From contig JAJEKV010000004.1 in NCBI GenBank assembly GCA_021234155.1, positions 1,628,519 to 1,692,518 of the forward strand: 64,000 bases of DNA. Direction: 5' to 3'. The notes beneath the pieces were generated by a model. It searched no databases, had not been told where the DNA came from, and saw only the letters and a program-made list of their open reading frames with translations. Each line of letters starts with the position of its first letter. The stretch's first letter is position 1. This DNA comes from Isoetes taiwanensis (lineage: Eukaryota; Streptophyta; Lycopodiopsida; Isoetales; Isoetaceae). The translations under genes were made by a program, and so were the position numbers. Shown piece by piece: positions 12,340 through 62,800 of this stretch.

Positions 12340-13545
12340 CATTGTCATAGTGGATGCTTTTAGTAGATATACATGGGTTTTTCTAATCAAATTCAAGTCT
12401 CAAGCTCTTGCTATCTTAGGTCTGCAAATTGAAAATGAATTATCTACTAGTATTAAAGCTCTTATATCGAATATTGCGAAGGAGTATATCTCTAATGAAT
12501 TTCAGACCTATCTTCTGTCCAAAGGAATCCATAGAGAGATGATTATGTCTTACACTCACTTTCAAAGTGGAATAGCAGAATGAAAGAAAAGAACCCTTAT
12601 GAATTTGACTCGTAGCATGCTCAAATATAAAGAGTTACCTTCAGAACTTTGGGCTGAGACAGTTCTAACTACTGCTTATTTGTGTAACAGGGCTCCCACC
12701 CATGCCATCAACTTTAGGACACTGTTTGAGGCTATAGCACTAAGCCAAATGTGTCTAATCTTGAAGTTTTTGGCTGCCTAGGGTTTGCTAATGTTCCTTG
12801 AGAATTACTGCAAAAACAAGGCAAGCTAGCTGACAGGGCCATTTAGGCTATCTTTATTGTATATCCTAGCAACATCAAACGTTGGCGATGCTTTGACTTT
12901 GGTACCAAGCGTGTATTTGCCTCCAGAAGCATGCCGGATGTAGTCTACTCTAAGGAGTTTTATCATCCTAACACCATTGATTATGCCAAAGGCATCATCA
13001 ACACCTTTGATATTGATCATGACACTCAAACCATTCAATCTGCAAGATCTTCTCATGTGGTTCATAATGGTGGCGTTTTTTGTACCTTCCATTGTTGCAA
13101 GCCCTTCCAGGTTTGCCGGTACTCCCTAATGTTGCAAGTTCTTCAAGTATTGCAGCAGATAGAGCAGATGGTGCGTGATGCTTTATGAGTATGAACAGTT
13201 GAATATCGTGAGCCCATTCCAAATGAGGATAGTGAAGGGTATGAGTCCGATTCACATTCATTTGAGCTGCCCATGCCTATTACTAAACCACGCCTAGGGA
13301 GGCAAAAGTTTCCAATCTCCCCTTGCTTAGAAGCTCATGAATTGCCGAAGTTCTGACCTATTGACTACTTTCAAGATGACTTTTTCATGTTACCGTTAAC
13401 TCATGCTCTTATGGCTAAGGTCTTATCAGCAGAAGTTGATTTTGTTAATTATGTTCAAGCCATGAAACAACCACACTAGATTGCAGCAATGGAAAAAGAA
13501 TTATCCGTGTTACATAATCAAGGTGCATGGGAGCTGGTTACTTCT
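12340..13545 (+). pseudogene. copia pol fragment (integrase core to start of RT)
   Basis: Typical copia integrase blocks are visible: DAFSRYTWVFLIKFKSQA near 12350, GIHREMIMSYTHFQSGIAE then a stop at 12525-12583, and LTRSMLKYKELPSELWAE with AYLCNRAPTHA at 12603-12710. The link region has FDFGTKRVFASRSMPDVVYS, and the tail is the conserved N-terminal RT motif (AAMEKELSVLHNQGAWELV). Several in-frame stops (12584, 12781 and later) make it non-functional. The zinc-binding HHCC part of integrase is not visible. Confidence 0.75.
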
Positions 13546-16126: not shown

Positions 16127-16142
16127 AAGATAACGGTGATGA

Positions 16143-16270
16143 CTCCCAAGAGCTCTTTATCGGGAGTCGTTTTGGCACCTCGATGTCGACTCATCACATC
16201 CGGGGTTGAAGAAGGTCCCAAGGGTTGGTTGTTAACGTCCGAAGTGGTACGTGAGTTGGGTTTAGAACCG
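16143..16270 (+). rRNA. rrn26: Mitochondrial 26S (23S-type) rRNA fragment, non-functional
   Basis: The block around TTTGGCACCTCGATGTCGAC (16170-16189), CATCACATCC, GAAGAAGGTCCCAAGGGTTG and GTGGTACGTGAGTTGGGTTT belongs to domain V of large-subunit rRNA. The GAAGAAGGTCCCAAGG form and AAGTGGTACGTGAGTTGGG fit plant mitochondrial 26S rRNA better than plastid 23S as I remember them. About 130 bp only, with small deletions, so it is a NUMT fragment. Confidence 0.75.
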
Positions 16271-16274
16271 TACT

Positions 16275-16700
16275 CCTCCCGCGGTTCTTGAAAAACCGAA
16301 CTTTTCTCCGAGGGGATAGATGGGGCCATTCGTGTGAGATCAATTCTAATGGGGATTTGACCTTCCATTCTCACGGGATAAGGCGGTCCAGGGGGGCCAG
16401 TCATTCATGGCTCCTCTCTTCCCGAGAATCCATATATCCCTTATCAGTGTATGGATAGCTATCTCTCGAGCACAGGTTGAAGTTCAGCCAAGATGTGAAA
16501 AATGGAGCACCTAATAACGCATCTTCATGGACCAGGAACTACGAGATCACCCACGGAAGTCTTTCATTCCGGGGTGACGGAGGGATCGTATCATTCGAGC
16601 CTTTTCCTGCTTCTTCCCCTTTGTCACGGGGAAGCAATCAATATTATCTATCAGGAGGGGCCTAGGAGACCGAGGATCCAACCAAGGGCATAAATAACTC
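16275..16700 (+). pseudogene. Plastid trnI-GAU intron fragment (ycf68 region)
   Basis: The segment around ACTTTTCTCCGAGG, GATGGGGCCATTCG, GGCTCCTCTCTTCCCGAGAA, TCCCTTATCAGTGTATGGA, GCTATCTCTCGAGCACAGG and GGTGACGGAGGGATCGTA follows the plastid trnI-GAU group II intron, where the doubtful frame ycf68 lies. The match fades at about 16700. It is out of context (no rrn16 or trnA beside it) and carries indels, including an insertion after ACCCACGG near 16555. Confidence 0.8.
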
Positions 16701-33258: not shown

Positions 33259-35251
33259 TTGGCCCCAAAGGGAAACATACTAATTGTGGTCTATGCATTA
33301 AAGCTAGGTTAAGTCATTTTGGAAGACTAGGTCAAAGTTTGGAAGAGCTTGGTAGCCAACATTGATGTGGAGGTCAAAGGATGCTTACCTTCCAGGTCAA
33401 CAAGTGCTTAAGTTAAAAGTTCACAAGAGGAACTTTATTTGAGGTCAAATGCTTAGTCAAGAATATACTCTAGAAGACTCTGGGTTATGAAGTTTGGAAG
33501 ACATCTTTTGAAGTTTGGAAGTTAAAAGTTTGGAAGACCCCTGTATACATGGCACCAAATCCTGGTTCTTTCCTTCTCCCCCATTTCCATACTCATATCT
33601 CATTCCCATTTACCTTTGTTTAACCATTGTGCCCACTTCTTCACTATACTTGCCAAGTTTGCTTATCTCAAATATTCCTCTAGCCCATATTTTCCTTTTC
33701 TTTTCATAATACTACCATTGGATATTCTTTTTATCATTACCCTTGCACATCCCCTTGAGTTTTCATTATTCTAGCCTCTCTCACTCTATATATCTTCACC
33801 TCCATGACTATCATTTTCTTTCTTCTTACCTTCACACTCCATGGGTACCATTACCTAGGGATTTGTGCCTACCTAACATAGCTCCAAATCATCTCCAAAA
33901 TCGAAGGGTCACATGGCTACATTCTCCATGGTTCAAGACTTGCTAAATTTCCATGATACACTTATAGTACCCTCGAAAAACCATGGCCAAAATTCTTAAG
34001 GCTCTAAAATACTAGCATATTCGAGCATATACGCACAAAAATACCTGGACCATATCGCGAGTTTTTGCAAAAAATATGGCATTTAGCCCTAGAAATCAGG
34101 AACGGGCTCAAATTTCGTCGGAATTGGATTCTTAAGCTCTGAAACATGCCTGTTATTGGATTCCCGCATCTAAGCAACACATTAAGCCTAAAAATATGGT
34201 CTGAGATCCCGGAAATCTTAAAATCAAACCTATATACAGGGAAAACGTACACGGGCAATTTTTGAAGGCCCAGAAACGCTCAAATTCAACATTCACCAAT
34301 GCTGAGCATGATCTGAAAAAATTCTTGAAGTCCCTGAGCACTCCTCGATTAGATTTGCAAAGATCTGATTGATATTATTTTCTAAAAATTATTTTATGAC
34401 CTGAGATTGATATCCTCCAGTATTTGAAGTATTGAAACACTGTTATTCATTATTATTGTGATCTACTTATCTCCACATTAATGAAAATTCGTTGCCAAGT
34501 TGATGAAGTTGTCTCTGATATGATCTTTGGCAATTTTGCCTTTCAAACAAATTCTACAGTAAATTCCTCTATACTCCCAATTGCCTTTGGCCCAGTGGCC
34601 ATCGATCCTTGAGACCTCTGAGATCTATATGCTTTGAAAAAATTGAACAATACCATCCACAACTCGAGTTAGAAAATCTTGCACCCTGTTTTGACTGTTC
34701 TTGACTGTACTTTGCCAAATCCGAGTTCAAAAATACCTCTGAGCATCCAAATGAAGATTTGATTTCATGCCTCCATTCTTTACCATCATTGTGACACATT
34801 TGCTTTGAAAATTCTCAAAAAAGTGGCCAGAAGCTCCAAATCCCTTTTTCTGATCACTGTTTTTCAGTTTGACCCTTATTGACCAACTTTTAAACTCACT
34901 ATAAACTTGAATATCTCTCAGATCTATGATCTGACTTGGTCAGGAACTACACCATTGGATTCACATAACTTTTTTGTGCCAGTCTAAAGCATCTGACCCA
35001 AAAAATCAATCCGTTATCGACTACTACACCAATTTGAGCAAAGGTCCCATTTCCTAGAAATGGGAAAGGTATGAAACTTTGAGTTTTTGGATTCTTATCT
35101 AGATTTATCTTTCAAAGAATGATCACCTTAAGTGATCTGGAGGTCCTAACACCAACTTGAGTCCAAACTCAAGTTGGCTCATTGTGGTTGACCTTTGAAG
35201 CCAGGTTGAGGGTCAACATCTTGGAGGTCCCTAAGAGATCCTACTTGGATC

Positions 35252-36320
35252 TTGAGAACTCATGGCTCCAAAACAGAAATTTCCAGTGAGCAAGAACCAC
35301 CGGGGCGATCAAGAAGCATCGGAACAACTGCGAGAGATAGGTCTCTGCCCTCAAGTTTTTCAACTGGATTACTCCAAAGCATGCCTTATCAGTTTGAATT
35401 GAATGTTCCTATTCCGTTGCCTACTTTTGACTCCAGCATGAGTGCTAATACTTTTTTGAGAACTTTTGAAGATTACTACAGGGACTATGGTTTTAAAAAG
35501 AGGTGTAAGTTTTCAGAGTTTGAGAAGTGTCTCAAGGAGGAGAGTGAAGTTGGTGCTTGGCTGACTTATGAGAAACTTATGGGAACTACCTCATGGGATG
35601 ACCTTGTCACCAAGTTCTTAGACAGGTTTGGAAAACTCGCTGCTCCCAAGGATCTTGTTAATGAATTGCAAAACTTCTCTATTTATGCAGGTGAAAGTGT
35701 TAGTCAATATAAGGAGAGGTTCATCACCTTCATGAATAGGTGCCCGAAATGCCAAGTTATCATTCCCACACTCTTTTTAGTGTCCTCTTTTATTAAAGGC
35801 CTGTCTTCTAGACCATAAATCCAAAGAAAACTTATCAAGATTCGAGCTGCTGAAGGTTTTGATTCCATTTACAAGGTTTTTGCCAAAACAACTGAGTTGA
35901 CCAAGATGCTTTCTATCCTACCAGAAAAGCACAATGGCTTTCATCATGATCCCTTCCCTGATGCCACTGATGGCCCTTATGAACCTCACCATTCTGTCCC
36001 AATCTATGTTGTGCACAAAGAAAAGAAAAAGGCCAAAGATGAAGAGGCTTACTCTCAAATTTCAGAAGTTAAAGCGATTTGACAAAGGTGGTGAAGCTTT
36101 TAGAAGTGACCAAACAACTTGTGGAGCTTAAAACAAACAGGGCAGGTAGAACTTATCCTGAATGTATCCATTGCAAAAGAACTTCACATCCAGCTGACAT
36201 CTGCTATTGACAAGTGTGCCCTAAATGCAATAGAAAAGGCCATTTTGGCAGAGAGTAGCCAATTTGTGCTTTTGCAAGGAGGTTGGTCACACTGACCTTA
36301 GGTATCCTGTTAAGGAGTAT
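35252..36320 (+). pseudogene. Gag of the gypsy-like element
   Basis: The first 188 codons are open. They include PYQFELNVPIPLPTFDSSMS, a capsid-like GAWLTYEKLMGTTSWDDLVT with KFLDRFGK, and NELQNFSIYAGESVSQYKER. After a stop at 35816 the frame resumes, and a basic linker leads to three zinc knuckles at about 36150-36310: CIHCKRTSHPADIC, CPKCNRKGHFGRE and CFCKEVGHTDLR. The capsid-plus-knuckle arrangement is normal gag; the stops show inactivity. Confidence 0.75.
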
Positions 36321-40169: not shown

Positions 40170-40203
40170 AACAAGGTGACCTAGCAAATGCACTAATGAC
40201 CTG
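40170..40203 (+). repeat. Left terminal inverted repeat (34 bp, perfect)
   Basis: Exact reverse complement of 48638-48671. Beyond it, similarity continues weakly (GGAATCTTT on the left, GATTCCTTTTT-like on the right). Confidence 0.95.
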
Positions 40204-40528
40204 CGCTTGCACCGCAAAAAGGAATCTTTCAAAGATTCCCTAAAAAAACCTAAAAATTGCCACTTTTGGGGGGTCAATTGAAAAAACAGCCCTTAATTTT
40301 GATTTGCGACACCCCTTTTTGGTCCAAAATTAGAAAACTTTTGTTGTTTTTAAATTCTAGACACCCAAAACAAATTTTGTAAAATTGGAGTCACCTTTTA
40401 GGAAAATCTAGGAAATACAAGAAAACTAACAAAATTAAAGAACCATTAAAATCTTCACAAGAAATGAAAGCAAGATTGGCAAATCTAGGCGTATCTATTT
40501 GTTATTACTCAAGAAGAACCACAAGGTG

Positions 40529-40542
40529 CTATGCGCGCATAG
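40529..40542. repeat. Isolated palindrome copy in the left part of the transposon
   Basis: Exact CTATGCGCGCATAG. Degenerate copies on the left side lie at 40635, 42697 (GCGCACATAG end), 42737, 44165 and 44213. Confidence 0.9.
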
Positions 40543-40712
40543 GCAACAGAAAAACATACAAGACATAACTAACATGTCTGATAGCATTTGGCGCTTATAC
40601 AAGATATGAAAAAACATGGATAAACTTGGAAGAAGCTATGCGAGCTTGGCAAAGGCCTTCAACATGTACAAAAAACTCTAGCCAAAACTAGGAGGTAACG
40701 ATGTGCCCACAT

Positions 40713-43700
40713 TTAGATTATACAAAGTTTCTGACCTTTGAGGAGAGCGGGATTAGGAATGTCGTTATACTCGTCAACTCCTTGGACTTCGTCACCCTTG
40801 TCCTCGTTGCCACTCTCCTCATTGTCACTTGAAGTGGTCGAAGAGCTAACATTTGGAATCTTGTCCTCATCACGGGAAGCCGTGCGAACTATCTTGTGAG
40901 AAAGACTTGATAAGTTAGCTGTTGTCGCATACGTAACTGTTATCAACCTTGAGTGTAAAATCATAAGCCCGGCACTTGAGTTTCGTTCAGGTCCATATTG
41001 TCCATGTGATTCTTATTCATCGTTTTCCGGCCCTTCTTGAAAGGAATTATCATAGGATCATCTGGAGACCAACAAAAGGATATATATCCTTAGTGGCGCG
41101 TGCGGTGAACTTTTCACTACTAAAGGAGATTGTCTTTGAGTTCAATGTCTTTAACCGGCGCAATCCGGAAAGGGCGGCTCTTAGGTCATCGTCGGTCGAA
41201 GGTACAGCTATAAGCATCCCTTACTCAAACCACGCTAGTTTTTACGGAGTTTGGCCTTGGTTCTTTTCAAAGGCACGTCTACTTAGAGGTACATTACGAT
41301 CGGGTTCCTTGTTGACTTCCGCGATCTTTGTAGAACCACGGAACCCTTTGCAACAATCCGCGCCTCAACAAGGGGATGAACTTGAGTACCAGGCCAACAA
41401 AAAGCAACTTCCAGGGAGATGTTGTTGAGGGATTTAGTTACATCCTGCATTATTGAAAAGAAATTCTCTCACCAACCTTTGTCCTCCTCACTGAAGTACT
41501 TAAAATCCGACCTTATACTTTTCTCCATCTTTGGTCGGTGAGGCGAAGGGATTTTGTCCTTGTTCTTTTACGTGTAGTCTATGGCACACCCCGATTGGCT
41601 TTGAATAGCCCTTCTCATTACCTTAGTTTCAGGAACATATTTTAAATATTGTAGGCCTGCCTCAGGCTGCCAAGTTTGGGAGGTGACAAAGTACTTCCCT
41701 TGAAGTTGTGCTTTACCGTCCTTGAGAAAAAATTTTACATGATGTTGAAATGTCAAATTATTCAACCTATGGATAGCAGGACCTATATCACCATGCCATT
41801 TGGAAAACAAACTCACGAAAATCAAAAGTCTCGCTAAGCACCCGACAAGCCGGAGTTGGATTGTAAGCTTGCTCAATCACCTGCACCTGAGGAGTGTAGA
41901 CAAAATGCCTTTTCCTTCGCAACCCCGGGAAAATCATTGAACATTTGGTCTATCGATCATGGGTGTGACCCACAAGTAAGAAACCAACCTTGACCTTTCA
42001 AAAGATACCCAACTCGACCAGCATTGCGCAATAAGCAAATAAAACTTGGTTTTTGTTTTCTCTAGTAGTATTGTCTAACTGTATGTACAACACTTTGGCG
42101 CGACTTCTCCTTTGCCCAGCAAAATCTTATTTAGTATTGTCACTTAGTGAGGTTAGGATCATTGTGTATATTTGGATAGGTCAAAAATACTGCGACCTTT
42201 GTACAACACCATGAAAGATCATCGCCCCAACCAAATGAAGCCTCAAAAATCAGTTCATCTAAATCCTTTGGAACATTTACAAAATGGGAAGTGACATCTT
42301 CTTTTGATCCATGCCATCTACCACCACGGACATATATTGAGTGGCCTCCAAAGATTTCTTTCTATGTTTTGCTAGCTTCTTTCTCTCCAAGGCTTGAGCC
42401 TCTCTGTGAACTTACAACTCTTGAGTTATCGATGCGCAATTAAGGACATTAGTCGATTACCTTGAAGCAATAGTAAGGCTCCCCAGGCTGCAGCTAAGCT
42501 TTTATAGCCGTGCTATCTTGGCGCATAGGCAAAAGCTTGTCGATTACCTTGAAACAGCGATGGGCTCCACAGGCGCAAAAGCTTTTGTAGTCGTGCTATC
42601 TTGGCGTATAAAGCCGAACTTCTGGGGGGGGGAAGGGGCGAAGCTACAAGATTGAGCAGAACCTTTGTGCGAGTACTACAAGATTGAAAAGACACGCTAT
42701 GCGCACATAGACAAACTCAAGACTAAATAAGCCGTGCTATGCCCGCATAAGACAATGTCTCTAGCCGTGCTATCGAAGGGATTAGGCGAAAGGGGCGTAC
42801 TTTTTTTCTAGAATATCCTTTGCCATTGATCGTTTTTCCTTTAATATGGGCGGCTAGTACACACGCAAGAAAATCTGTGCCTCTTCGGAATCCTAACAAG
42901 ATTAAATTCTTGCTTCCACAACCTCAAGTAGGAATAGGATATGAACTTGACTTGAACTCTGGAAAAAGATCCTTGTACATCTTTGTAGACTTCCTTCTTA
43001 GTATCTTGTATGTCGGATGATATCTTTGGACTGTTTGGAAGTCGCTCCACGGTTGGAGTCAAAGAAACCTACCGCCAAGCTTTTGCTTCTAGGCAATACA
43101 TACCAAACAACTTTTTTGGGTGTGAGCAGTCATCAATGCGCGGGTTCTGTCTAACCTCTTTTGCACTCTTGACATGCGGCGACTTCCAATGGCATGTATT
43201 CTTTTAAAAAGCAAGTTGGCTGCTTGTGTTGCTTTCGAAACATAGTATGAAAAATTGTCTCCAACCGAGGCCTTGCTTTATGCCAAAGTACAACTCTTGA
43301 TCACCTTTCGACATTGACAAAACCGTTGTCTTATGTGCCTTAAAGGCGAAAATGTAAAGGCACGTAAGCATTTTTTTTCGACAACAATTCGGTCTCCTCG
43401 GCTTTCTCATGTAAAAGTAGTCCCATCAATCGCTCGCGCATAACAATTCTAAAAGCTTTTCTTTGTGGGATCCCTCTTAAATCTTTTCGCCTTCTTTGTA
43501 TGGGTTTTCAACTGCGGGACTTTTATTACGGCGATTAATGCGTGGTAGGTCTTTCGAAGTCGCGAGGCTGCGTCTTCAAACCTCGGGGTCATCAACCTTG
43601 TAAGCCCTCAGCGGAAGTCAGTGCATCGACCAAATAATGTTCTCGACTTTCTCTTGAACATGAAGGTCTTCCTCGAAGCCCTTTACATTAAAGAAGGGCC

Positions 43701-44095
43701 CGGCGACCTTGACACATGTCTCTCATGAGAATCTACAATATAGAAGGAGCGATTAGGTGTAGTTCACGGAGAGGTGAAGGAGTATCAAAAATAGAGTGAA
43801 ATGCGTTGAGTAGGGAAGAGGAGAAGATACTTCGTGATTGTGTGGGGGGAGGGTGTTTTAAAAGCGGACCGAATGTTTGAAAAGCGTGTTTTGGAGATGG
43901 AGTTTGAAAAAGAGGTAGACACCGCCAGTAGGTGTAAAGGGGAGGGAGGCGGTGTGGAGGAGGTAGCATCGGGAGAAGCGTGTCGTAGTCTTCTTCATCG
44001 TCACCTTTGGTGTGGGTGTGTTGTAACGACCGAGTCAATATTGCAACGTGCGGGGAGGAGTTGAAGTAAAAGCGTCTTAAATCGTCGCTCTCCAT
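40713..44095 (-). pseudogene. DDE-type transposase gene (DUF7869-like), several exons, damaged
   Basis: Transposases cut and join element ends. Reading leftwards, a His/Pro-rich beginning (44095-43740) is followed by LWKQEFNLVRIPKRHRFSC with V-C (42935-42865), the zinc-binding-like IPK..RFS.C block typical of this family. Next come MSVVVDGMDQKK (42338-42300) with a probable first catalytic Asp, LYIQLDNTTRENKNQ (42090-42046) with the D-N..REN block, and FLLVGHTHD (41980-41952), the VGHTH..IDQ.F block, here broken by a one-base deletion. Then FSKWHGDIGPAIHRLNNLTF and a W-rich end lie at 41820-41580. An acidic C-terminal tail stops at 40713. The set of motifs and their order match proteins carrying DUF7869 in plant and animal transposons. 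Introns separate most blocks. The N-terminal exon is the least certain. Confidence 0.75.
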
Positions 44096-44696
44096 TCTTT
44101 TGCCGCAGGGAAGAGTGACTTGTTTCAGCCATTAAACCCTCTCCCTTCAAACCTGCAAGTCTAGCCCATGCGCGCATAGAAAAGCAGTTACAAACGTAAT
44201 ATACACTAGTTGCCCATGCGCGCATAGACAGGGAAACAATATGTCTATGTACGCATACTTCAATACGAAAAGTAGATGCCACACAACCAAGAAACATTAC
44301 AAAATATTAGACATTATCTCCCCAAGCCAATGCCTGCAACCAAAACTATATGTGCATGCAAGAATTCATAGACGAAAAGCAAAGTACGTAACACAATATA
44401 AATACGAAAACATATGGAGGCATTTGCACATACAGACGATACTCCAAGGCGCTCGACCTCCGCCTAGAATTTTGCTCTTCCGTTTCGAACTGTAGCATCT
44501 CCATAGATTTCTGCATAGCATTGCCAAAAATGTCAGGTGGAAGGTACGTAAACATCTCAGCCAGTATCAGTTTACATTACTTGTTTATAGGGACTTTTGC
44601 TTAGAGTCAAAGAGAATTGATTTTAAGCTTTTTGGACATCCTGTTTGCCGAATTTCTTCTTGGGCATTAGCATTTAGTGTTTTTTTCTCTCATTGT

Positions 44697-44914
44697 CTAT
44701 GCGCGCATAGGCATTCTGTCTTTTTTCTTATTATTGTCTATGCGCTCACAGGCATATTGTTTTTTCTCTTATTGTATTGTCTATGCGCGCATAGGCACCA
44801 ACATTTTTAGCAACCCTTGACTATGCGCGCATAGGCGTTTACCTTTTATCCTGCCATTGTCTATGCGCGCATAGGCAGAATGTTTTTTACTTGCTATTGT
44901 CTATGCGCGCATAG
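44697..44914. repeat. Regular array of CTATGCGCGCATAG palindromes
   Basis: Exact copies start at 44697, 44781, 44821, 44861 and 44901, and a degenerate one starts at 44738. Spacing is about 40 bp (41, 43, 40, 40, 40). Most sit in the context TGT-palindrome-GGC. The DNA between is not conserved, so this is a set of sites rather than a tandem repeat. It lies between the two divergent genes of the transposon. Confidence 0.95.
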
Positions 44915-44979
44915 GCCTTTCCATTGTTAGATCTGCTTGTGCTTGTACATTTTCTAGCTGTCTTTTAATATGTTTTTTG

Positions 44980-47900
44980 TCTTGTAGAATCAAGAAAAAT
45001 CACGGCGAGCTCCTCCCACAAGGCGTCCAAGAAGAGGAAGCCGACAAAGGATAAGAATCAACCAAAGGATGATGCACCTACACCTTTCATGATCGAGGGC
45101 CGGTTCCTATTTACGTAAGGACCAAAGGTGGCTACTTGTAAGAAGGAACTAGTGAGCACTAGAAGCGGCACATTTTTTGTACCTATACATTTGTGACCGT
45201 TTTGGTAAAGAACCCCAAGACTTGGACAGCTTCAAGAGATGTGGCAGGTTAACAGATACTGAGCTCTTCGGTATGTTTCATATTAACTGCACCACATCGA
45301 CTAAGGGGTCTCAACATGTTTACTCGGTGGACCCCCATTTCTTTAAGCTCAGTCTGTCGTCTCCCGAGGACATGCAGGGTTACATCCAGGCCAGAATGAA
45401 AGCAAAAATTGTAAGTATTGTCTATGCGCGCATAGCTTAAGAAACTTTAATGTTCTTCTTGCGCTAATGGAATGTTTCTTTGCAGGATCTTGTCACCATT
45501 TTGAAGGACCTGCTATTGTGCAAAGATCCTATTTTAACTTCTAGTGCCTCTGTTCCTAAATTAGGTAAAAAAAATTACTCAAAAGGCTGGCGTTAATTTA
45601 CAACCACATCACCTCAGGCTCTCAAAAGGCTGCTAGGAAGGCCTTAAAAGCAAGCTTTGGTTCGGGGACTGCACCGAAGATAGCAAGCAAAGGAGAAGGA
45701 TATGGCAAGTAAGAAGCTCAAGGAAATCGAAATCTGAGATGTCGATGATGCCCGGCATCATGCATCTCTCGGTGGTATGGTAAAGCTTGCACCTAAGGAT
45801 GAGCACGCGGTGTAAGACAACAAGCGAGGTCAGAAAAATTCTGATGGCCATAGCGCATTCAAAGAAAGAATAAGAGGCGGTCCAGAATAAAAGAATGACT
45901 CCTCATATTTGTATAGTTGATCGCCTTGATTCAATGATAAGGAGTTGTTCGTTAAGGAAGAGGCGAGAACTACAAATACTATATTTTAGGGGGCACCCAC
46001 GGTTTCAAGGCAAGAAGGCAGCTATACAAGGAAACAAAAAGCACCGATTTTCACAAATCTTTGCCTTTGTTTTACGTGGGTGTCCTTGACTTCGAAGCAA
46101 AAAATTTGCTTGCAATGAGCCACAGCGTGGACAAACGAGTATCGGATGAGTATGAGCTTCACAGATAAAATTAAATTCATGCACAAGGAATATGAACTCT
46201 TCCGTTCAGAGCACCAAGGTGAGAAAGATATTAAGGAAGACCAGGCTCTGTACCTGGCCTTAAAAGAACAGTGCGCTACTGAGTGCTGCCTAACTTACTC
46301 CACCTCAGATGCCAGAGTATTTCTTATAAAATACGATAATTATTTTCAGTTAGCTTTCCGTCATGGACGTGTAAGTACTTTCTCTCGACCTTCGCCTTTG
46401 GCTATGCCCGCATGGCTTAAATATTTTAACATGCTTGTTGTTTTCTATGTTAGGTCTGGGAGCTACAAGAAAAAAAATTTGACATGTTCTCTAAGGGTAC
46501 TTTAAAAACTAAAGGCAAGTCAACGGATTCCAAGAGGAAAAAAACGGATCCCGCAAAGCAAAAGGATATGGGCATAATGGCCTGGCGTGAAATGCAAGGC
46601 CTTAAAAATGTTGACAAAGTTTGTGAGGTCCTGCAAAAGGTTGTTGATAAACAGTTCACTCTGGAAGAGACGCAGAGAGAATTTAAGCAGTAAGCCTACA
46701 TTACACACACACATTTTTTCCAATGTTTGTTATTAACCTCTTGCAGCGTTTGCAGCCAAAAAGATTGTGCACTCTGTCAACAACAGTTAATGGTTCACCT
46801 CAATTGCGACAACTGGGAGAAGGTGCGGGAATTATACCCCACGTGGTCCTCAGACGAAAAAATAAATCAATACGCCACCAACTTTACCAACTGGGTATGT
46901 CATTTGTTTCTCCTTCCTGCTGCTTGAGTTAAGGTACTCGTTTTTGTACCTGTGCTATGCACGCATAGCATGGGAGTGAGGGAGCTGTCGTTTTGTTTCT
47001 TACAAATATTTTCGGCTTTCAGAAAAAGAAAGACCCCATGCCACCTGGATTTTTAAACATGGTCAGGCTAGCTAAGGAGGAGCGGTCGAAGCTGAAAAAG
47101 TCTCAAGAAGCTGAGCAGAGTTTGGTGCCTTCGGAGTTTGAAAGATTTGATATGTTTGGCCAAAATTGTCTATATCAGGTGTATCGTGGGAATTGTGTCA
47201 AACTTGACCACACTTTGAGACCTGGCAACTATTCCTTGTGCATAGCTGACATACCTTACGGGTTTAAGTTGCCTGACAGCCGTGGTGATGACTCCCATTT
47301 ACGTACGCCGAGTTTGATTCTTTTTTTGGGAGGTTTGTTAAGATAAACTTTGCTAAGCTCACGGAGGATTGTCGTCTTCCACTCCACTAACCGGCCGGTA
47401 TGGTGCAAGTGCTATGAAGACCCCTTTGCAAAAAATTTGGTTCTGAGGCTGCCATACTGGTAAGTGTCTAGTTGTTTTTTCTCCATGCGGGCATAGCGAA
47501 TACAAAAGTGTTTCCTTTCTTTGCGGGTTAAAGGCGAATAATAGGGGGAGGTGGTGGTGCTAGACTTGTCAGCGTATGGGGCAGATTCATATAGGCTACC
47601 ATAGGGTATCTTTGAGAGAAGCCAAATGCACTATAATACTCTTCGGCATGGATTTTTCTTAATGCTTTTCAATTTAGGTGATCTTACAAAAGCTTACGGA
47701 CCAGTTCACGAGGGGCGCATTGTCAATCCTACCGAAGCCTCGGAGACTCATTATTCGGAGATGTTCTTACAACTGGAGATTGGGTCGTTGGCCTTTTCGG
47801 GATCCGACCACGTTGGCTTGTGCACTAGGAAGGGCGCAAGCTGCGTAGCCATTGGCGTCGGGCGGATGCGTGGCATACATCAGCCCGAGTCAGTTCCTTA

Positions 47901-48177
47901 CCGCGGCTTGCGAGGGGCGAAAAACAGGAACTTGGGATCAAGGATAAGGATGGTGTTAGGCCTTCTCGATTCGAGCATGTGCCTCTCTTCACAGGGAACT
48001 GCGGCGATCAAGGCGACTATGTTGAATTGATTCCGTCGGACGATCCAATTAAGGTCATGAGAGGATAAAAGTCCGGCCGAAGTCGAGGACAAACTACAAG
48101 CTACTAATCCTAAGTCTCCCCAAGGTTCTGAATCAGATGAGGAAGTACCTGCAAAGGATGTTCCCCTAGATATTTAA
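44980..48177 (+). pseudogene. Beta-class DNA amino-methyltransferase-like gene of the transposon
   Basis: Such enzymes put methyl groups on N6 of adenine or N4 of cytosine. A Lys-rich N-terminus (SHKASKKRKPTKDKNQPKDD) follows an AG at about 44987. Exons with good GT-AG borders then encode a helical middle, a Cys cluster (CSQKDCALC...HLNC, 46750-46800) and the catalytic part. Motif IV reads SLCIADIPYGF (47235-47265; D-P-P-Y in active enzymes, here D-I-P-Y). VVFHSTNRPVW follows at about 47370. After an intron come VNPTEASETHYSEMFLQ (47723-47775, matching the HPTxKP region before motif I) and SGSDHVGLCTRKGASCVA (47797-47850), which aligns with the PGD..LDPF.GSGTT motif I. Motif IV before motif I is the permuted beta order. 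An acidic tail ends at 48177. Frame changes at 45118, 45715, 47315 and 47870 suggest decay. Confidence 0.6.
45422..45435. repeat. Palindrome copy inside an intron of the methyltransferase-like gene
   Basis: Exact CTATGCGCGCATAG, 10 bp after the GTAAGT donor at 45412. Similar but altered copies lie in the introns at 46402, 46955 and 47483. Confidence 0.9.
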
Positions 48178-48257
48178 AAATCTGTGCAAAAATTTAAACA
48201 TTTTATTCTATGTGCCCTATTTTAAATATAATATATTTCATTAATATTTATCATCAT

Positions 48258-48552
48258 GTCTATGCGGCGCATAGGCTTTTTCTCTTCGGTTGCATTTTGT
48301 TGGTCTAAAAAGTGTGTCTCTTACTTTGTCTAAAAACAAGAAAACACACTTTGTCTTGAAATGTGGACTTTTTTAGGCTCCTTTGCGTTTTTAAATAAAT
48401 TATATTTTAATAAGGACTGTCATGTCTATGCGCGCATAGGCTTTTCTCTTTTCAGTTGCATTTTGGTGCTCCAAAAAGTGTGTTTCTTACTTTGCCCAAA
48501 ACCAAGAAAACCACCTTGTCTTGAAATGTGGACTTTTTTAGGCTCAACTGCG
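48258..48552. repeat. 130-bp direct duplication in the right end of the transposon
   Basis: Two copies (48258-48389 and 48423-48552) each begin with the palindrome (48260-48274 with one extra G; 48425-48438 exact). They continue with AAAAAGTGTGT.TCTTACTTTG and end TTGAAATGTGGACTTTTTTA plus GGCTC. A poly-T run follows the second copy. Confidence 0.9.
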
Positions 48553-48585
<33 letters not shown>

Positions 48586-48637
48586 GCTAAAATGCAGAAT
48601 TTACGTGTTTTTGAAAAAGGAATCTGCAATTGCACCA

Positions 48638-48671
48638 CAGGTCATTAGTGCATTTGCTAGGTCACCTTGTT
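48638..48671 (-). repeat. Right terminal inverted repeat (34 bp, perfect)
   Basis: Reverse complement of 40170-40203. The next base outward starts CTGGTG and does not repeat the left flank. Confidence 0.95.
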
Positions 48672-56800: not shown

Positions 56801-59800
56801 TCTTGAGGGCAATGACGAATGAGCAGGCTTCATGCCTTGTTAATATGCAGGCTGATATGACACTCGGAAATCTACCACAAGGATGGCACTTAGTCTAGCT
56901 TTGTCTCTAGATGAGGGAAAGGCAACCTGGACAGAGACAAGATATAACGCCCTTTCTAGTATCACTTGTGAGCTGAGCTGAGCTGAATATGAAAATGTCG
57001 GAGGATCTCACTCTCTCTATTAGCCATACTCCCCTGATGTATAAGCTCATCCTTCATGCCCTGTCTATGCATATTGAAGTCCAAACTCACTATGTACCAG
57101 AGAAAGCTGCGAAGGTTGAATCTGAATGATTTATTATAATTGTCCAACCAATCAGCAACTGGCTGACATCTTCACCAACCAACCTTGAGGAGAGCCGATG
57201 ACCACAAGTCGTTAGCTTGGACCGACAAATGTAGGCTGATTGGACACAAATTAGCTGACTGTATACATAGGTTGAGGTGGATAAAAAGTTATCTTTGGCT
57301 GTAGCTGTCACTATGTAATGTATCTGCTTTTGGCAAATACTGACACCTATTTTCTTGCTCCAGCTCTATCACCTTTTGGGAATGGTCTCTTTTTCTTTGT
57401 GTACCTTCTCTGGCACATCGTTGCTCTGACACAAAGGTCGCCAATTAACAGCATAATAAAACATGTGCCTTCATCTTTCTCTCTGATATACTTTAAGCAT
57501 CTGGTGCAATATGATCCAACCTGCAGTTGAAAATCCTAAGAAACTTGGAATACTTGCTTGACCAATTCCAACTCCTTCCTTCATCTGGGAGAAACCATGT
57601 CAAGGAGTTGCAGTTACTGGTCAAACACTTACTGGCACGAGAAGATATTTGAGCATTGTAAATTATGTCCTTCAAGCAAGATCCCATAATATTTCAACAA
57701 TTACTAAAAGACAATCCATCATTTGGAGAAAAGACACAAGCCTACAAGAAACAATTGAATATGTACATAGACTCACACTCCTCCCAATGCATCAATCTCA
57801 TCGATAAATACAACTGCTGGACGATTCACCTGCATAGCAGAAGTACATATATTAGAGTATACAAGTGAATTATTAAGTAGCAGTGATTATGCCATGCTAT
57901 CATGCTTAATGTTACTCGTTAACAGAAAAAAATCAGTAATCTAGGCTGAAGGAGCCTACTGACTATGAGGAAACCATACAAAAAAGTCCAGTGTACAGCA
58001 ATCCAACATGGCACATGAAGCCGTCTGATATGGTTTAAGGTTAATAACTAATAATGGTGCTCGGGGGAGTGGCCTTGCATGGAACAATATTTATTGATAT
58101 GATCAAGTAAGAAAGTCATCCAGTATGTCTAAGCCTTGCTATTATCAAAGAGAGAGCTAAAAATAAACCTTGACCTTTATTTAGAGGCAAAAAGGCAAAA
58201 AAAGGTATTGTTGCCTATAAATAGAAGGACAACTTTGAGATGTGATATCTCCGCAACCACAACTCAGAAATCGGCGATCCTTACCTTATTGGAAAGCCCT
58301 TGAAGTCTAGTTTCCAGATTGGGCTTGGTTGTCCATAGATTCCTTACGGTTTGAAAGTTATGCCCAGAAAGGTGCATAGGGGTCTGAGTTGACTGCACAG
58401 CTAGATCTGCTTCTTCCTATGTTGATGATGAGCCTAGCCTTACCTTCTAGTATCTTCTCTTGTTCCTTGCTTGATCATATCATTAGAAGGAGTTAAGGAG
58501 TTCATGTAACACCAGTGGTTGGTGGCTAGAAAGAGTTTGTTCTTATACAGTCTTGCGGAGTAGCTTGACTTGGTGATATCTCTTCTAGTTGGTCCGGTTG
58601 GGTGGTAAAACGAGTACCCTGTGGTATTTTGCTTTCTAATTAGTTGATGAATTTGCAGGAAGATTAGAGCATTCGTAACACCGTCTTTACAGGCCCTGTG
58701 CCTCGCAGAATTGCCTACACAGCACTAGTCTAGTCAGCACTTTAATAGCTATAGCTATGTACAGATCTGTTTAGATGTCAGAAATGCCACTGTGTGCCAC
58801 AACATCAAACATGCTGCCATCATGTGACCATGTCTGCTGTAACTTTATACATTCTGCTAAGAATTTATACATTTTTTATACCATTAAGCCATAATAATGT
58901 CTTCAGCTTACCTTCTACTGTAGCAGTTGCTGAAAAACCAATCTTGGAATGGGTCAAATTTTGTAATCACTTTAATATGCCATCTTTTAATCTCATTTGC
59001 CAATTCCAGACCAGGAACAAAGAACCATTCATCAATACCATTCATTCCAGACCTCTAAGACACGTGATGCTAGCAAGTGATTTGTTATTTGAATGTGGAT
59101 CCTACATGGCAATGAGAAAGGCGCACATAAATGGCACATGTATTGATGTCTAAATGGCCTGCAGATGGACGTGTTGGGATATGGTACCGCAACTCAATGC
59201 TATGACTATGTTATGTCTCAAAATGAGTTGATATTGAAAGGGTCTCAGCGATTCTACATGGCATTTGATGTATCTTAGCAAGCAGCCGATGACTCGTACT
59301 AGTTAACGTGAACTTTTCTATCATTTCTCGTGGGTTCTATGGTCTAGTGACAGTGGACTTTGAATCCAATAGCTCGAGTTCAAATCTCAATCGGACCTCA
59401 TTGAATCGTAGAAAAATGAGAGCACTCGATCGCTTGTGAATAAACCATAAGCAATAACTGCTCTAACAGTGTCCATTTGGCAACAGGGGAAAGACTTCAG
59501 TATAGTCATGGATACTAATCTTGCTTTGTGTTTGGCCAAGGATCCATCTGCATTAAACTTTGTCTTGTAGACCCATTCTTTTTTTCACTGAACTCCATCC
59601 TAAAGATGTCACTCCAGTGCATATTCGGAGACTTTAAGTGAAATTCATTCTTGGATTATTTTCTCTTCTTTCTATGTATTCCCAGGTCAATGGCCTACTT
59701 CCTTGCTTTGGAGTGAAACGTGCCGGAAACCATTCACAGGTAGCTAAGTGATAGAGATAAAAAACCTCTAGTTTACATGGATCTAGCCGAACATTCAACA

Positions 59801-62800
59801 TTTCCTACGATACTTTATCTTTTCAATGGCAGGTGATGCAATCAAGCTACCTGCACTTGTTCGATTTGGCATTTTGGCGGCTCTTTTCTGATGAACGAGG
59901 ATGTGAATGGGCACATCTCCTAGGGACTGGGGATGCCTCACGGCCCAGTGGTCGACATGATAATGGTGGGTGGGCGATAGCTATACCTTCTGAGACAGCA
60001 CAGCAGACAGCGCATCCACTCTAGGTGCAGAGGTCACAAGCCCAAATCTCACCACCCCGAGTCAAGTCAACAAAATAAAGACGTGATTTATTGCCAATAA
60101 CATTGTGCTTAGCTCGTCTATTGGTCTAGGAACGACTGCCCAAGTATCTTGCTCTTCTAACATAGAATACTCTTGAGTCATAGCATCCACCCACTGTTTG
60201 TGTTTGTGCTTGACCACTTGACTAAAATGCGGAGAATTCTGATGCTCATCATATTTTTCCATGAGAGCATTGTTGACAGTGAGGCTAGGAGGTAAGCGAG
60301 CAAGTCTGAGTGACCTCCTTGGAGTAACTGGTTGAATCTCAGGTAAGAGAGGTCGAGTGGCCACTGAGATGTCACAGATTAGGGTTTCTTTTGTCAGAAA
60401 TAGTGGATAAAGATTAATCCACTTCACTTATCAAGGAAATTACAGCAAATTCATCTTCTGTTGCTGTAGTAGTAATAACCTCAGACTCATGTGAGGTGTC
60501 AGAACTAGATTTATCATGCTCAGAAGGTAAAGTAGGAGCAGTTGAAATTCAAGAATTAGCATGGTCAAAAAATTGTTTGAAGTAAAACTTTTTGAAAAGA
60601 ATATTTATCATTGTCCATTTGTAAATATTCTGAGCAGTTGAAATTCAAGAATTAGCATGGTCAAAAATTTGTTGAAGTAAAACTTTTTGAAAAGAATATT
60701 TATCGTTGTCCATTTGTAAATATTCTGCATCTTCTATGAATTGAACACTTCTGGAATATTATAAAGTCTCCAGCAAAAAAGCAGAGACCTGATCCGGAAA
60801 GCAGAGCTGCTCAAATATTTTGAAGATTGGATGAATAGAGATGAAAACAGGCTCCCAACTACAAAAGCTGCTTAAATCAAAGTAGGAACTGATGAAATAT
60901 CTCATTTCTGCTCAGAGAACACCTTATAAGCACGTCTTGTCAAGAACTATCAAAATATCCTCCAAAACTTGCCAGATTGAATCAAGAATGGGATCAGTAG
61001 AATGGTGAGACAGAGAGGACTCAGATCTGGAAAGCTTTCACTGAGATTATATTACACACACAGGATTCACAATGCGTCCTCCCTCTGCAACTTTTCTCAA
61101 CTTTCCTCTGTAGTCCAGCTCTGATACCATATTTGAATGTGGATCCCACATTGGTATCTCAGAAACGCGTACATAAATGGCACATGTATTGATGTCTAAA
61201 TGTGGTAATGACAAATCAGAAAGGCATGACATACATAGTCATGTGTGACACGTCGTAGAGAGTAAAGTGTCATATGTCTCTAACATTTGTGTTCCCCCGC
61301 AAATTCTTCTTGCCATATTTAATGGAACATAAAGCAAAGTCCAGGACTGTTGCAAACCTTTGATCAGTCAATATTGATACAAGACCCATCTCTGTTACCT
61401 ATTGTTACGAACTGCAAGTTGGATCAGGTTAAGTCCACACAAGACCTTAAGACAAGTATGGCCACAGCCAAAAGGACAGCAGAAACGGTGATTAACTCGC
61501 CACTCAACCTATGAACTCAGACCAATCCGAGCTCCCCGCCGAGCTGCCGAGCTACACAAGACGACCATGTGATCTCAGGATTCCTCCCTCCCAGATCCAT
61601 GTAACTGTCACTCTTCACCTTTCCCCAAGACCTTTCCAAAAGGTGACTTGGCATATAAGACGTACACCTTATATGGCTACTTCCCCCTTTCTAGCCTCTA
61701 TGGGCTGCGCCCAAGATGGCCTCCCCTAAGCGACTGCTACAGATTCCAAGATCCAAACTCAGAATCGTAACAGCCCACCAGGGTAAAAAGACAATTGACC
61801 TCAATTGTAGCGACCACACAAGTCCCTCGACCACACAGGTCATTGACCACACAGGTCCCTCTTTTCGACCACACAGGTCATTGACTACACAAGTCACTAT
61901 TTCGACCACACAGGGTCTTTATTTCGACCACACAGGTCTACCACGCAGGTCCACCACACAGCTCATTAACCCCACAGGTTCCACACAGACCACGTAGCTT
62001 ATTAACTACACAGATTCCAGACAGTCCACATAGCTCATTAACCACACAGGTTCACACAGACCACACAGCTCCACCACACAGGTCCCTTGATCTATCTCAG
62101 TTGTTGGGACCTCCAGCAGTGCTAGACAAACCAGCCTCAAATTTGGCCTCCCATGTTCAGCTGCTAGGTAAACTTCGCTAAGCTTTCAGAGAACTCCTCT
62201 TTTTGCCATTCAGCTTTGGTGTGGGGCACATACAACGTACTAGGGCATTATCCATCCTAATACCAATACCAAATATGCACTGCACTAGTTCAACTAATGC
62301 CTCCATTAGCCTAGCTAATGGTTGATTCATCTTGAGGGCACATGGCTCACACAAGATTTGGAGTATCCATGATAATCCCTCTGAGGCACAAAGCCCCTCC
62401 AGGAGTAACCACACTATCTATATTACGTTTCAACTCCCTCACTTGCTATCGTCGTAAACAAATAAGGACAGCAGAAACGGTGATTAACTCGCCACCCAAC
62501 CTATGAACTCAGACCAATCCGAGCTCCCCACCGAGCTGAGAGCTAGCATACACAAGACGACCATGTGATCTCCTCAGGATTCCTCCCTCCCAGATCCATG
62601 TAACTGTCACTCTTATATAGCTAAGTCTCCCTTCACCTTTCCCCAAGACCTTTCCAAAGGGTGACTTGGCATATAACCCCCTTCCCCCCTTCTAGCCTCT
62701 ATGGGCTGCGCCCAAGAAGGCCTCCCCTAAGCGACTGCTACAGAATCCAAGATCCAAACTCAGAATCGTAACACCTATAGTACAAGCCAATATTGGGTGC

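Follow-up and report, generated by a model that had tools for sequence, protein, structure and literature searches.

Transposons that carry a DNA methyltransferase (MTase) of their own are known from algae. In Ectocarpus, the element Sola1-1_Ec32 has a gene for a ParB-like region joined to an N4-cytosine/N6-adenine (N4C/N6A) MTase on the strand opposite its Sola-1 transposase; the available sections of the 2025 report propose that the element modifies itself, and they cite cases in green and red algae (PMC12477816, citing Iyer, Abhiman and Aravind 2011 and Petroll et al. 2025). Here we describe an element of this kind from a vascular plant, found in a 64,000-nt stretch of Isoetes taiwanensis DNA that was analysed as a whole (the window). 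The interval delimited in Table 1 is a dead copy, or fossil, of a two-gene cut-and-paste DNA transposon, in which a broken gene with the DUF7869 domain, a putative transposase, and a broken gene for a ParB-like region and a beta-class-like MTase diverge on either side of an array of palindromes.

The resemblance to Sola1-1_Ec32, as far as the available sections of that report describe it, lies in an accessory gene on the opposite strand that combines a ParB-like region, here recognised by motif only, with an N4C/N6A MTase; that gene has the same strand and order in the window and on five contigs, almost certainly of the fern Azolla (see below). Sola1-1_Ec32 is larger, at 21.5 kb with a 1104-residue protein, compared with 8.5 kb here and 960 residues in one Azolla copy. 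The present element also differs in its occurrence in vascular plants, in a partner gene assigned to DUF7869, and in its palindromes between the genes, which those sections do not mention for Sola1-1_Ec32. The first-pass annotation of this DNA knew of no described plant superfamily with its gene pair; as the Ectocarpus element shows, a pair of this sort has been described.

Other mobile elements also encode a DNA MTase. DIRS retrotransposons carry Dam-like adenine MTases and retrotransposons of dinoflagellates and charophytes carry DNA methyltransferases of the DNMT type (PMC5890265); going by the part of that source available, they share with the present element mobility and an enzyme of their own, but are retrotransposons with other MTase families or cytosine-5 enzymes and without a ParB-like region or terminal inverted repeats (TIRs). 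Cut-and-paste transposons of algal viruses encode an MTase as well, but together with an endonuclease, in a restriction-modification-like arrangement, and with a mariner transposase. The carried enzyme is like beta-class MTases (PF01555; RsrI, MboIIA, CcrMI; phrog_67, phrog_498) in placing motif IV before motif I, in its NP-QKP motif and in its significant profile matches. Unlike those, it is eukaryotic, comes from a gene with introns, is fused to a ParB-like region and is borne on a transposon, and no partner nuclease was seen beside it. DUF7869 is not mentioned in the literature searched, and the titles and beginnings of abstracts listed revealed no plant case of the gene pair. On the available sections of the Ectocarpus report, the kind of element is already known, from algae; what is new, as far as searched, is its presence in vascular plants, the DUF7869 partner, intact copies under selection and the palindrome array.

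The ends of the Isoetes element are as the first-pass annotation placed them, with perfect 34-bp TIRs 8.5 kb apart. The TIRs are complementary at 34/34 positions, with a separation of 8434 nt, and are the only two matches to the repeat with up to three mismatches in the 64 kb; 100 dinucleotide shuffles gave none. Just inside the right end, a 60-nt repeat (48333-48557; 85% identical, 165 bp apart) occurs with palindromes nearby.

The minus-strand gene, DUF7869-like in the first-pass annotation, matches the DUF7869 profile (PF25273) at E 1.8e-26 (93.4 bits; cut-off 26) when one frame is read through with X at stops, while the remaining minus-strand pieces, single or joined, have no Pfam match. 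Two alignments of this gene to a relative, P0039, contain 8 and 10 stops (18 in total). The divergent gene has the permuted beta-class order that had been proposed for it: ADIPYG is motif IV, NPTEAS is the counterpart of NPYQKP, and the SGS...LCTRKGASC string is motif I in a shifted frame. The joined plus-strand read-through matches an Adiantum nelumboides protein, P0001, of 752 residues and with a PF01555 domain (E 9.6e-22; 26% identity over 62%), and an intact Azolla protein aligns piecewise to the homology pieces listed in Table 1. Three of the four MTase alignments contain one stop each, in addition to frame changes, and the window frame change lies within a stretch that is a single exon in relatives; some of the stops counted in both genes may fall within introns. 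Both window genes are pseudogenes. A megablast search of the element against plasmids gave no match.

Table 1. Coordinates of features of the element, in the window unless an Azolla locus is named.
Feature	Coordinates	Strand	Remarks
Left TIR, 34 nt	40170..40203	+	pairs with right end
Exact palindrome	40529..40542		359 bp from left end
Other palindromes, up to 3 mismatches	40636, 42697, 42737, 45422, 46402, 46955, 47483, 48426		between or outside aligned coding pieces
Broken DUF7869 (putative transposase) gene	40740..43277	-	profile match and tblastn with an Azolla protein and P0039
DUF7869 aligned pieces	43277-43155, 43047-42859, 42423-41803, 41777-40740	-	tblastn
Three more palindromes	44166..44258 (44166, 44214, 44245; 1, 1 and 3 mismatches)		DUF7869-gene side of intergenic region
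Array of six palindromes, CTATGCGCGCATAG (one with 2 mismatches)	44697..44914		spacing 40-43 bp; between the divergent genes
Broken gene for ParB-like region and DNA MTase	45156..48068	+	limits uncertain; homology pieces 45965-47394, motif-level matches to about 47870
ParB-like region (ILGGTHGFKARRQL ...)	45965..46373	+	motif; frame change inside
MTase motif IV, ADIPYG	47245..47262	+	identical in 8/8 Azolla copies
NP(YQKP)-type motif (NPTEAS), then frame-shifted motif I	47725..47870	+	intact counterpart NPYQKP...DLFSGTGTT
Right TIR, 34 nt	48638..48671	-	perfect complement of left TIR
Azolla-type TIRs, L002 (contig C204)	698/8421
Azolla-type TIRs, L007 (contig C433)	506/6549
Azolla-type TIRs, L008 (contig C142)	859/8663

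Better-preserved copies were found by scanning prokaryote genome contigs with the MTase alignment. This gave seven loci (L002-L008; record CAKZGI01), all from one metagenome-assembled genome (MAG) labelled 'uncultured Trichormus' (run ERR2144891). The fern Azolla harbours Trichormus azollae as its cyanobacterial symbiont, and because the contigs contain introns and their proteins are akin to fern proteins, we read them as almost certainly DNA of the Azolla host. The presence of plant-type transposon contigs in a cyanobacterial MAG of a reference collection probably reflects contamination by the host.

In this MAG, DUF7869 and the MTase each have at least 11 matches on nine contigs. Both genes occur on five contigs (C142, C204, C433, C437 and C447), always divergent as in the window, and the pair is present in 5/6 of the contigs with room for both. 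Seven of the eight other contigs (C326, C299, C425, C259, C294, C358 and C473) stop less than 0.75 kb past the gene start, short of the expected partner. Three contigs, C204, C433 and C142, span both ends of an element, each with 34-nt TIRs that belong to a single family (AACACGTTTGCGTGAAGAACAGGTAATATTGCGT in C433); the MTase-side end is present on C259, C294 and C358, the transposase-side end on C437, C447, C326 and C299, and no TIR end was found on C425. The Azolla elements measure 7.7-7.8 kb, apart from a 6.0-kb deletion derivative. The latter, on C433, keeps both TIRs and has lost the intergenic region and the 5' part of the MTase gene, and its DUF7869 frame carries stops. In A. nelumboides, the MTase-family protein P0038 and the DUF7869 protein P0107, one of two from this species among the 120 listed of 175 DUF7869 matches, bear successive locus tags (L7F22_049838 and L7F22_049839), and the contig of each is 2,828,115 long.

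Plant DNA transposons often contain captured genes, and the window copy, taken alone, could also be a transposon with a captured host or bacterial gene, or with a nested second element, that has no function for it. One Azolla contig, C311 (L039), lends this idea some support and counts against a fixed pairing: it has a short and diverged start of a DUF7869 gene (95 residues, 48% identity) with neither an MTase nor an array in the 2.8 kb beyond. The C311 copy is perhaps of another lineage or a solo copy. The recurrence of this pair in Azolla, in the same order and between TIRs, the adjacent tags in Adiantum and the purifying selection on the MTase described next leave such chance association largely refuted and, in our judgement, highly improbable. 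The central proposal of the first-pass annotation, a DNA transposon with its own DNA MTase, stands in these relatives, where the best intact copy has an MTase profile match and further copies retain the gene pair inside shared TIRs.

Comparisons between Azolla copies gave a ratio of nonsynonymous to synonymous substitution rates (dN/dS) of 0.00-0.09 for MTase exons where dS is defined (23/86), although dS is saturated in the other 63/86, which weakens the case. For DUF7869, the ratio is 0.04-0.13 where dS is defined (21/28), the remaining comparisons being saturated. For both genes, the proportion of nonsynonymous differences is below that of synonymous differences (pN < pS) in every comparison printed. 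Judged from these ratios, both proteins are under purifying selection, with constraint on the MTase similar to that on the presumed transposase. Seven DUF7869 frames in the Trichormus-labelled MAG are open across nearly the whole protein, and an intact relative matches DUF7869 at E 1.7e-52 and 178.3 bits, above the gathering cut-off. Four acidic residues (D326, D404, E409 and D446 in the numbering of P0063) are invariant in 40 aligned of the 175 DUF7869 matches, a pattern compatible with a DDE-type transposase.

A search with P0001 found 38 proteins including itself, namely 28 from A. nelumboides, two from A. capillus-veneris, Gb_10123, which we take from the style of its name to be a Ginkgo biloba gene, and seven unnamed ena/jgi entries; several of the gene models from A. 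nelumboides are cut up or fused. Two parts are conserved, a region around a GG[TSNC]HS box, which we judge to be ParB-like, and an MTase domain with NPYQKP and, where complete, DLF(A/S)GTGTT; motif IV reads [DE]APYG in the Adiantum alignment and ADIPYG in Azolla. Removal of four GT-AG introns from the C204 (L002) gene yields a protein of 960 residues, in which ADIPYG, NPYQKP and DLFSGTGTT follow one another, so that motif IV is upstream of motif I, as in the window. The same splicing procedure gave no open reading for C142. In the tree, the window row sits on a very long branch (3.74), and its placement was left out of use.

The profile check suggested for the MTase gave a divided answer. The spliced L002 protein matches PF01555 at E 2.3e-16 (60.8 bits; cut-off 26.7), and PF01555 matches at E<=1 in 14/32 aligned members; the window's plus-strand pieces, single or joined, match no Pfam family, PF01555 included, because that copy is too broken. 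The Azolla protein also matches phage MTase families (E 1.1e-17 and 1.9e-16). Its best solved relatives by profile are RsrI (E 1.8e-7), MboIIA (3.4e-5) and CcrMI (1e-4), along with a putative modification methylase; the three named enzymes act on adenine. Sequence comparison thus supports a beta-class-like DNA MTase, for which N6-adenine would be the favoured target and N4-cytosine a less likely one because the closest solved relatives are adenine enzymes.

Phage and viral proteins were considered as kin of the whole protein and set aside. Phage relatives of P0001 cover its C-terminal half only (<=31% of the query); the MadMen methylase, from a 231-aa gene, is too short for the ParB-like part; and one viral contig match (L001) is an ordinary 267-aa phage methylase. 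Two further scans found no relative.

The palindromes were absent from the first-pass annotation, as were the ParB-like region and the fact that the copy is dead. The 14-bp palindrome of the array has 18 sites in the element (<=3 mismatches; eight exact) and none in the other 55.5 kb, a contrast tempered by the selection of the motif for its repetition within the element, with the outside count as control. None of the 18 lies inside a listed coding piece. Azolla elements have TCGATGC-N3-GCATCGA-like palindromes at the same intergenic place. Sites with the core TCGAT-N4to8-ATCGA fall on the between-gene side in 41/41 cases and occur on eight of 11 contigs scanned (C447 14 and C437 10, mostly 50-54 bp apart; C204 and C259 four each; C358 three; C142, C326 and C299 two each); the sites were picked by this core, and its invariance is a consequence of that choice and is not to be counted as evidence. 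A ninth contig, C425, has three palindromes with a variant core (CCGATGCAGTGCATCGG). The two others are C433, from which the region is deleted, and C294, where no more than 155 bp of it remains. Two contigs scanned in addition to these 11, C473 (0.6 kb of the region) and C311, lack palindromes of such a core. The window and Azolla palindromes have only the core ATGC-N2or3-GCAT in common, which is suggestive.

Within arrays, palindromes are more alike than the spacers between them, with similarities of 0.95 and 0.62 in the window, 0.89 and 0.63 in C437, 0.83 and 0.61 in C447 (12/14 sites), and 0.88 and 0.69 in C259, where the choice of Azolla sites by their core favours the palindromes. A sequence-blind palindrome search returned the same core in 14/14 palindromes of C447 and 9/9 of C437. 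The outer arms covary across 36 sites picked by their core, with 41 double-sided changes compared with 21.4 in shuffled arms (0/500 shuffles reach this number). The covariation score is 0.237, and slid versions score 0.110 at most; part of this signal may come from tandem copying.

An excess of palindromes of any sequence was also tried as a general marker and rejected, because some stretches are not above shuffles. Such generic palindromes occur at 1.41 per kb in the window element and at 0.87 and 0.65 per kb outside it. Whole L002, L008 and L007 have 9, 10 and 8 (shuffle maxima 10, 10 and 8; 10 shuffles for every Azolla stretch, here and below). Between the genes, the counts, with shuffle maxima in brackets, are 14 (2) in L005, 6 (1) in L006, 4 (0) in L003, 4 (3) in L002, 3 (4) in L008 and 0 (1) in L004.

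The array's position and the core that its palindromes repeat lead us to read them as a probable protein site in a promoter. They might instead act independently of the MTase, either as nucleic-acid hairpins (in a 5' leader RNA, as a source of small RNA or as extruded DNA) or as an array bound by the transposase. The symmetric variation of the outer arms fits hairpins also, some Azolla palindromes reach at least 31 nt, and in several arrays the sites follow one another at regular intervals of about 40-43 or 50-54 bp. However, the single core in every C447 and C437 palindrome is as for a protein site, and the window also has isolated sites, some between coding pieces and some close to the two ends, so we regard this explanation as rather doubtful.

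We propose, as a reading that is probable though well short of assured, that this was a two-gene transposon of vascular plants whose ParB-like-MTase protein marked the palindromes, controlled the divergent promoter and marked the element against host chromatin. As a DDE-type transposase, the DUF7869 protein would cut and join DNA at the TIRs. The ParB-like region would bind the palindromes and keep the protein there, so that the MTase domain could methylate adenine, or with lower probability N4-cytosine, within these sites or close by. Such self-made methylation may control the divergent promoter and tune both genes, and with them the supply of transposase, as well as mark the element against host chromatin. 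The element would then possess a private Dam-like switch. The narrower form of the idea is a self-contained epigenetic switch, in which the ParB-MTase protein writes N6-methyladenine (6mA) or N4-methylcytosine (4mC) on its own promoter palindromes and the state of methylation or hemimethylation sets transposase expression; this we put forward only tentatively. In bacterial IS10, Dam plays a role comparable to that of the proposed switch.

The main rival is a general coat that serves anti-silencing or protection: 6mA or 4mC over the whole element would keep it open or counter host cytosine methylation, and the palindromes, having no special role for the MTase, would serve as binding sites for the transposase or for some host factor. 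According to the parts of the sources available, 6mA accompanies permissive chromatin in many eukaryotes (PMC12695648), and TET/JBP genes on fungal DNA transposons are read as an escape from silencing (PMC12730594). A general mark needs no sites in a particular place, however, and the confinement of every Azolla core site to the region between the genes points to promoter control, which makes us consider the coat an unlikely account, if one to be taken seriously.

Several further observations weigh against the promoter-marking transposon that we favour. A DUF7869 profile search of the PDB gave no match below E 0.6, and the transposase fold is putative. Sola-1 elements make a 4-bp target-site duplication. 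The same length holds for Sola2 (PMC3627910). Of the four elements with both ends, only one has a duplication, TGTT flanking both TIRs of L002 (C204); none is visible at the ends of the window element, nor at the TIR boundaries of L007 (C433) and L008 (C142). Window and Azolla TIRs agree at 12-13 of 34 positions, no better than shuffles, and share only their 34-nt length and first four letters, AACA. Motif IV is DIPY or DAPY and not DPPY. For the ParB-like region, DUF6551 matches in 6/32 members are weak (best E 0.0078), no ParB model is among the 25 families shown for aligned members, and for the spliced Azolla protein there is no match to either ParB or DUF6551. Some copies are damaged: the last-exon alignments of C259, C358 and C433 contain stops, as does an earlier exon of C358, and the MTase pieces of C473 have stops. 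P0038 and P0107 are incomplete, chopped gene models, and P0038 is without the catalytic part.

Elsewhere in the window lie its only two Rfam matches, to rRNA and to tRNA. The first (16129-16287; 85.9 bits) is a bacterial-type large-subunit rRNA fragment, perhaps from an insertion of organellar DNA, and the second lies at 59333-59398 (37.9 bits). An open frame of 202 aa (35210-35818) is retrotransposon gag-like by eye. The stretch 12428-12969 is similar to Adiantum P0025, whose PF25597 domain lies outside the MTase, and looks like a separate retroelement. At 61472-62773, two stretches 97% identical are repeated at about 1-kb spacing.

These elements add vascular plants to the range of ParB-MTase transposons, which had been reported from algae, and supply a candidate cis-acting partner that is absent from the available sections of the algal report. 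Enzymatic writing of 6mA or 4mC in land-plant DNA is disputed, and some reports question 6mA in plants, according to the portion of a recent source available (PMC12695648). The intact, selected gene and its candidate target array allow a direct test. If the proposed switch is correct, ferns, lycophytes and perhaps gymnosperms would have a targeted, enzyme-written N6A or N4C mark, in lineages where such marks are disputed.

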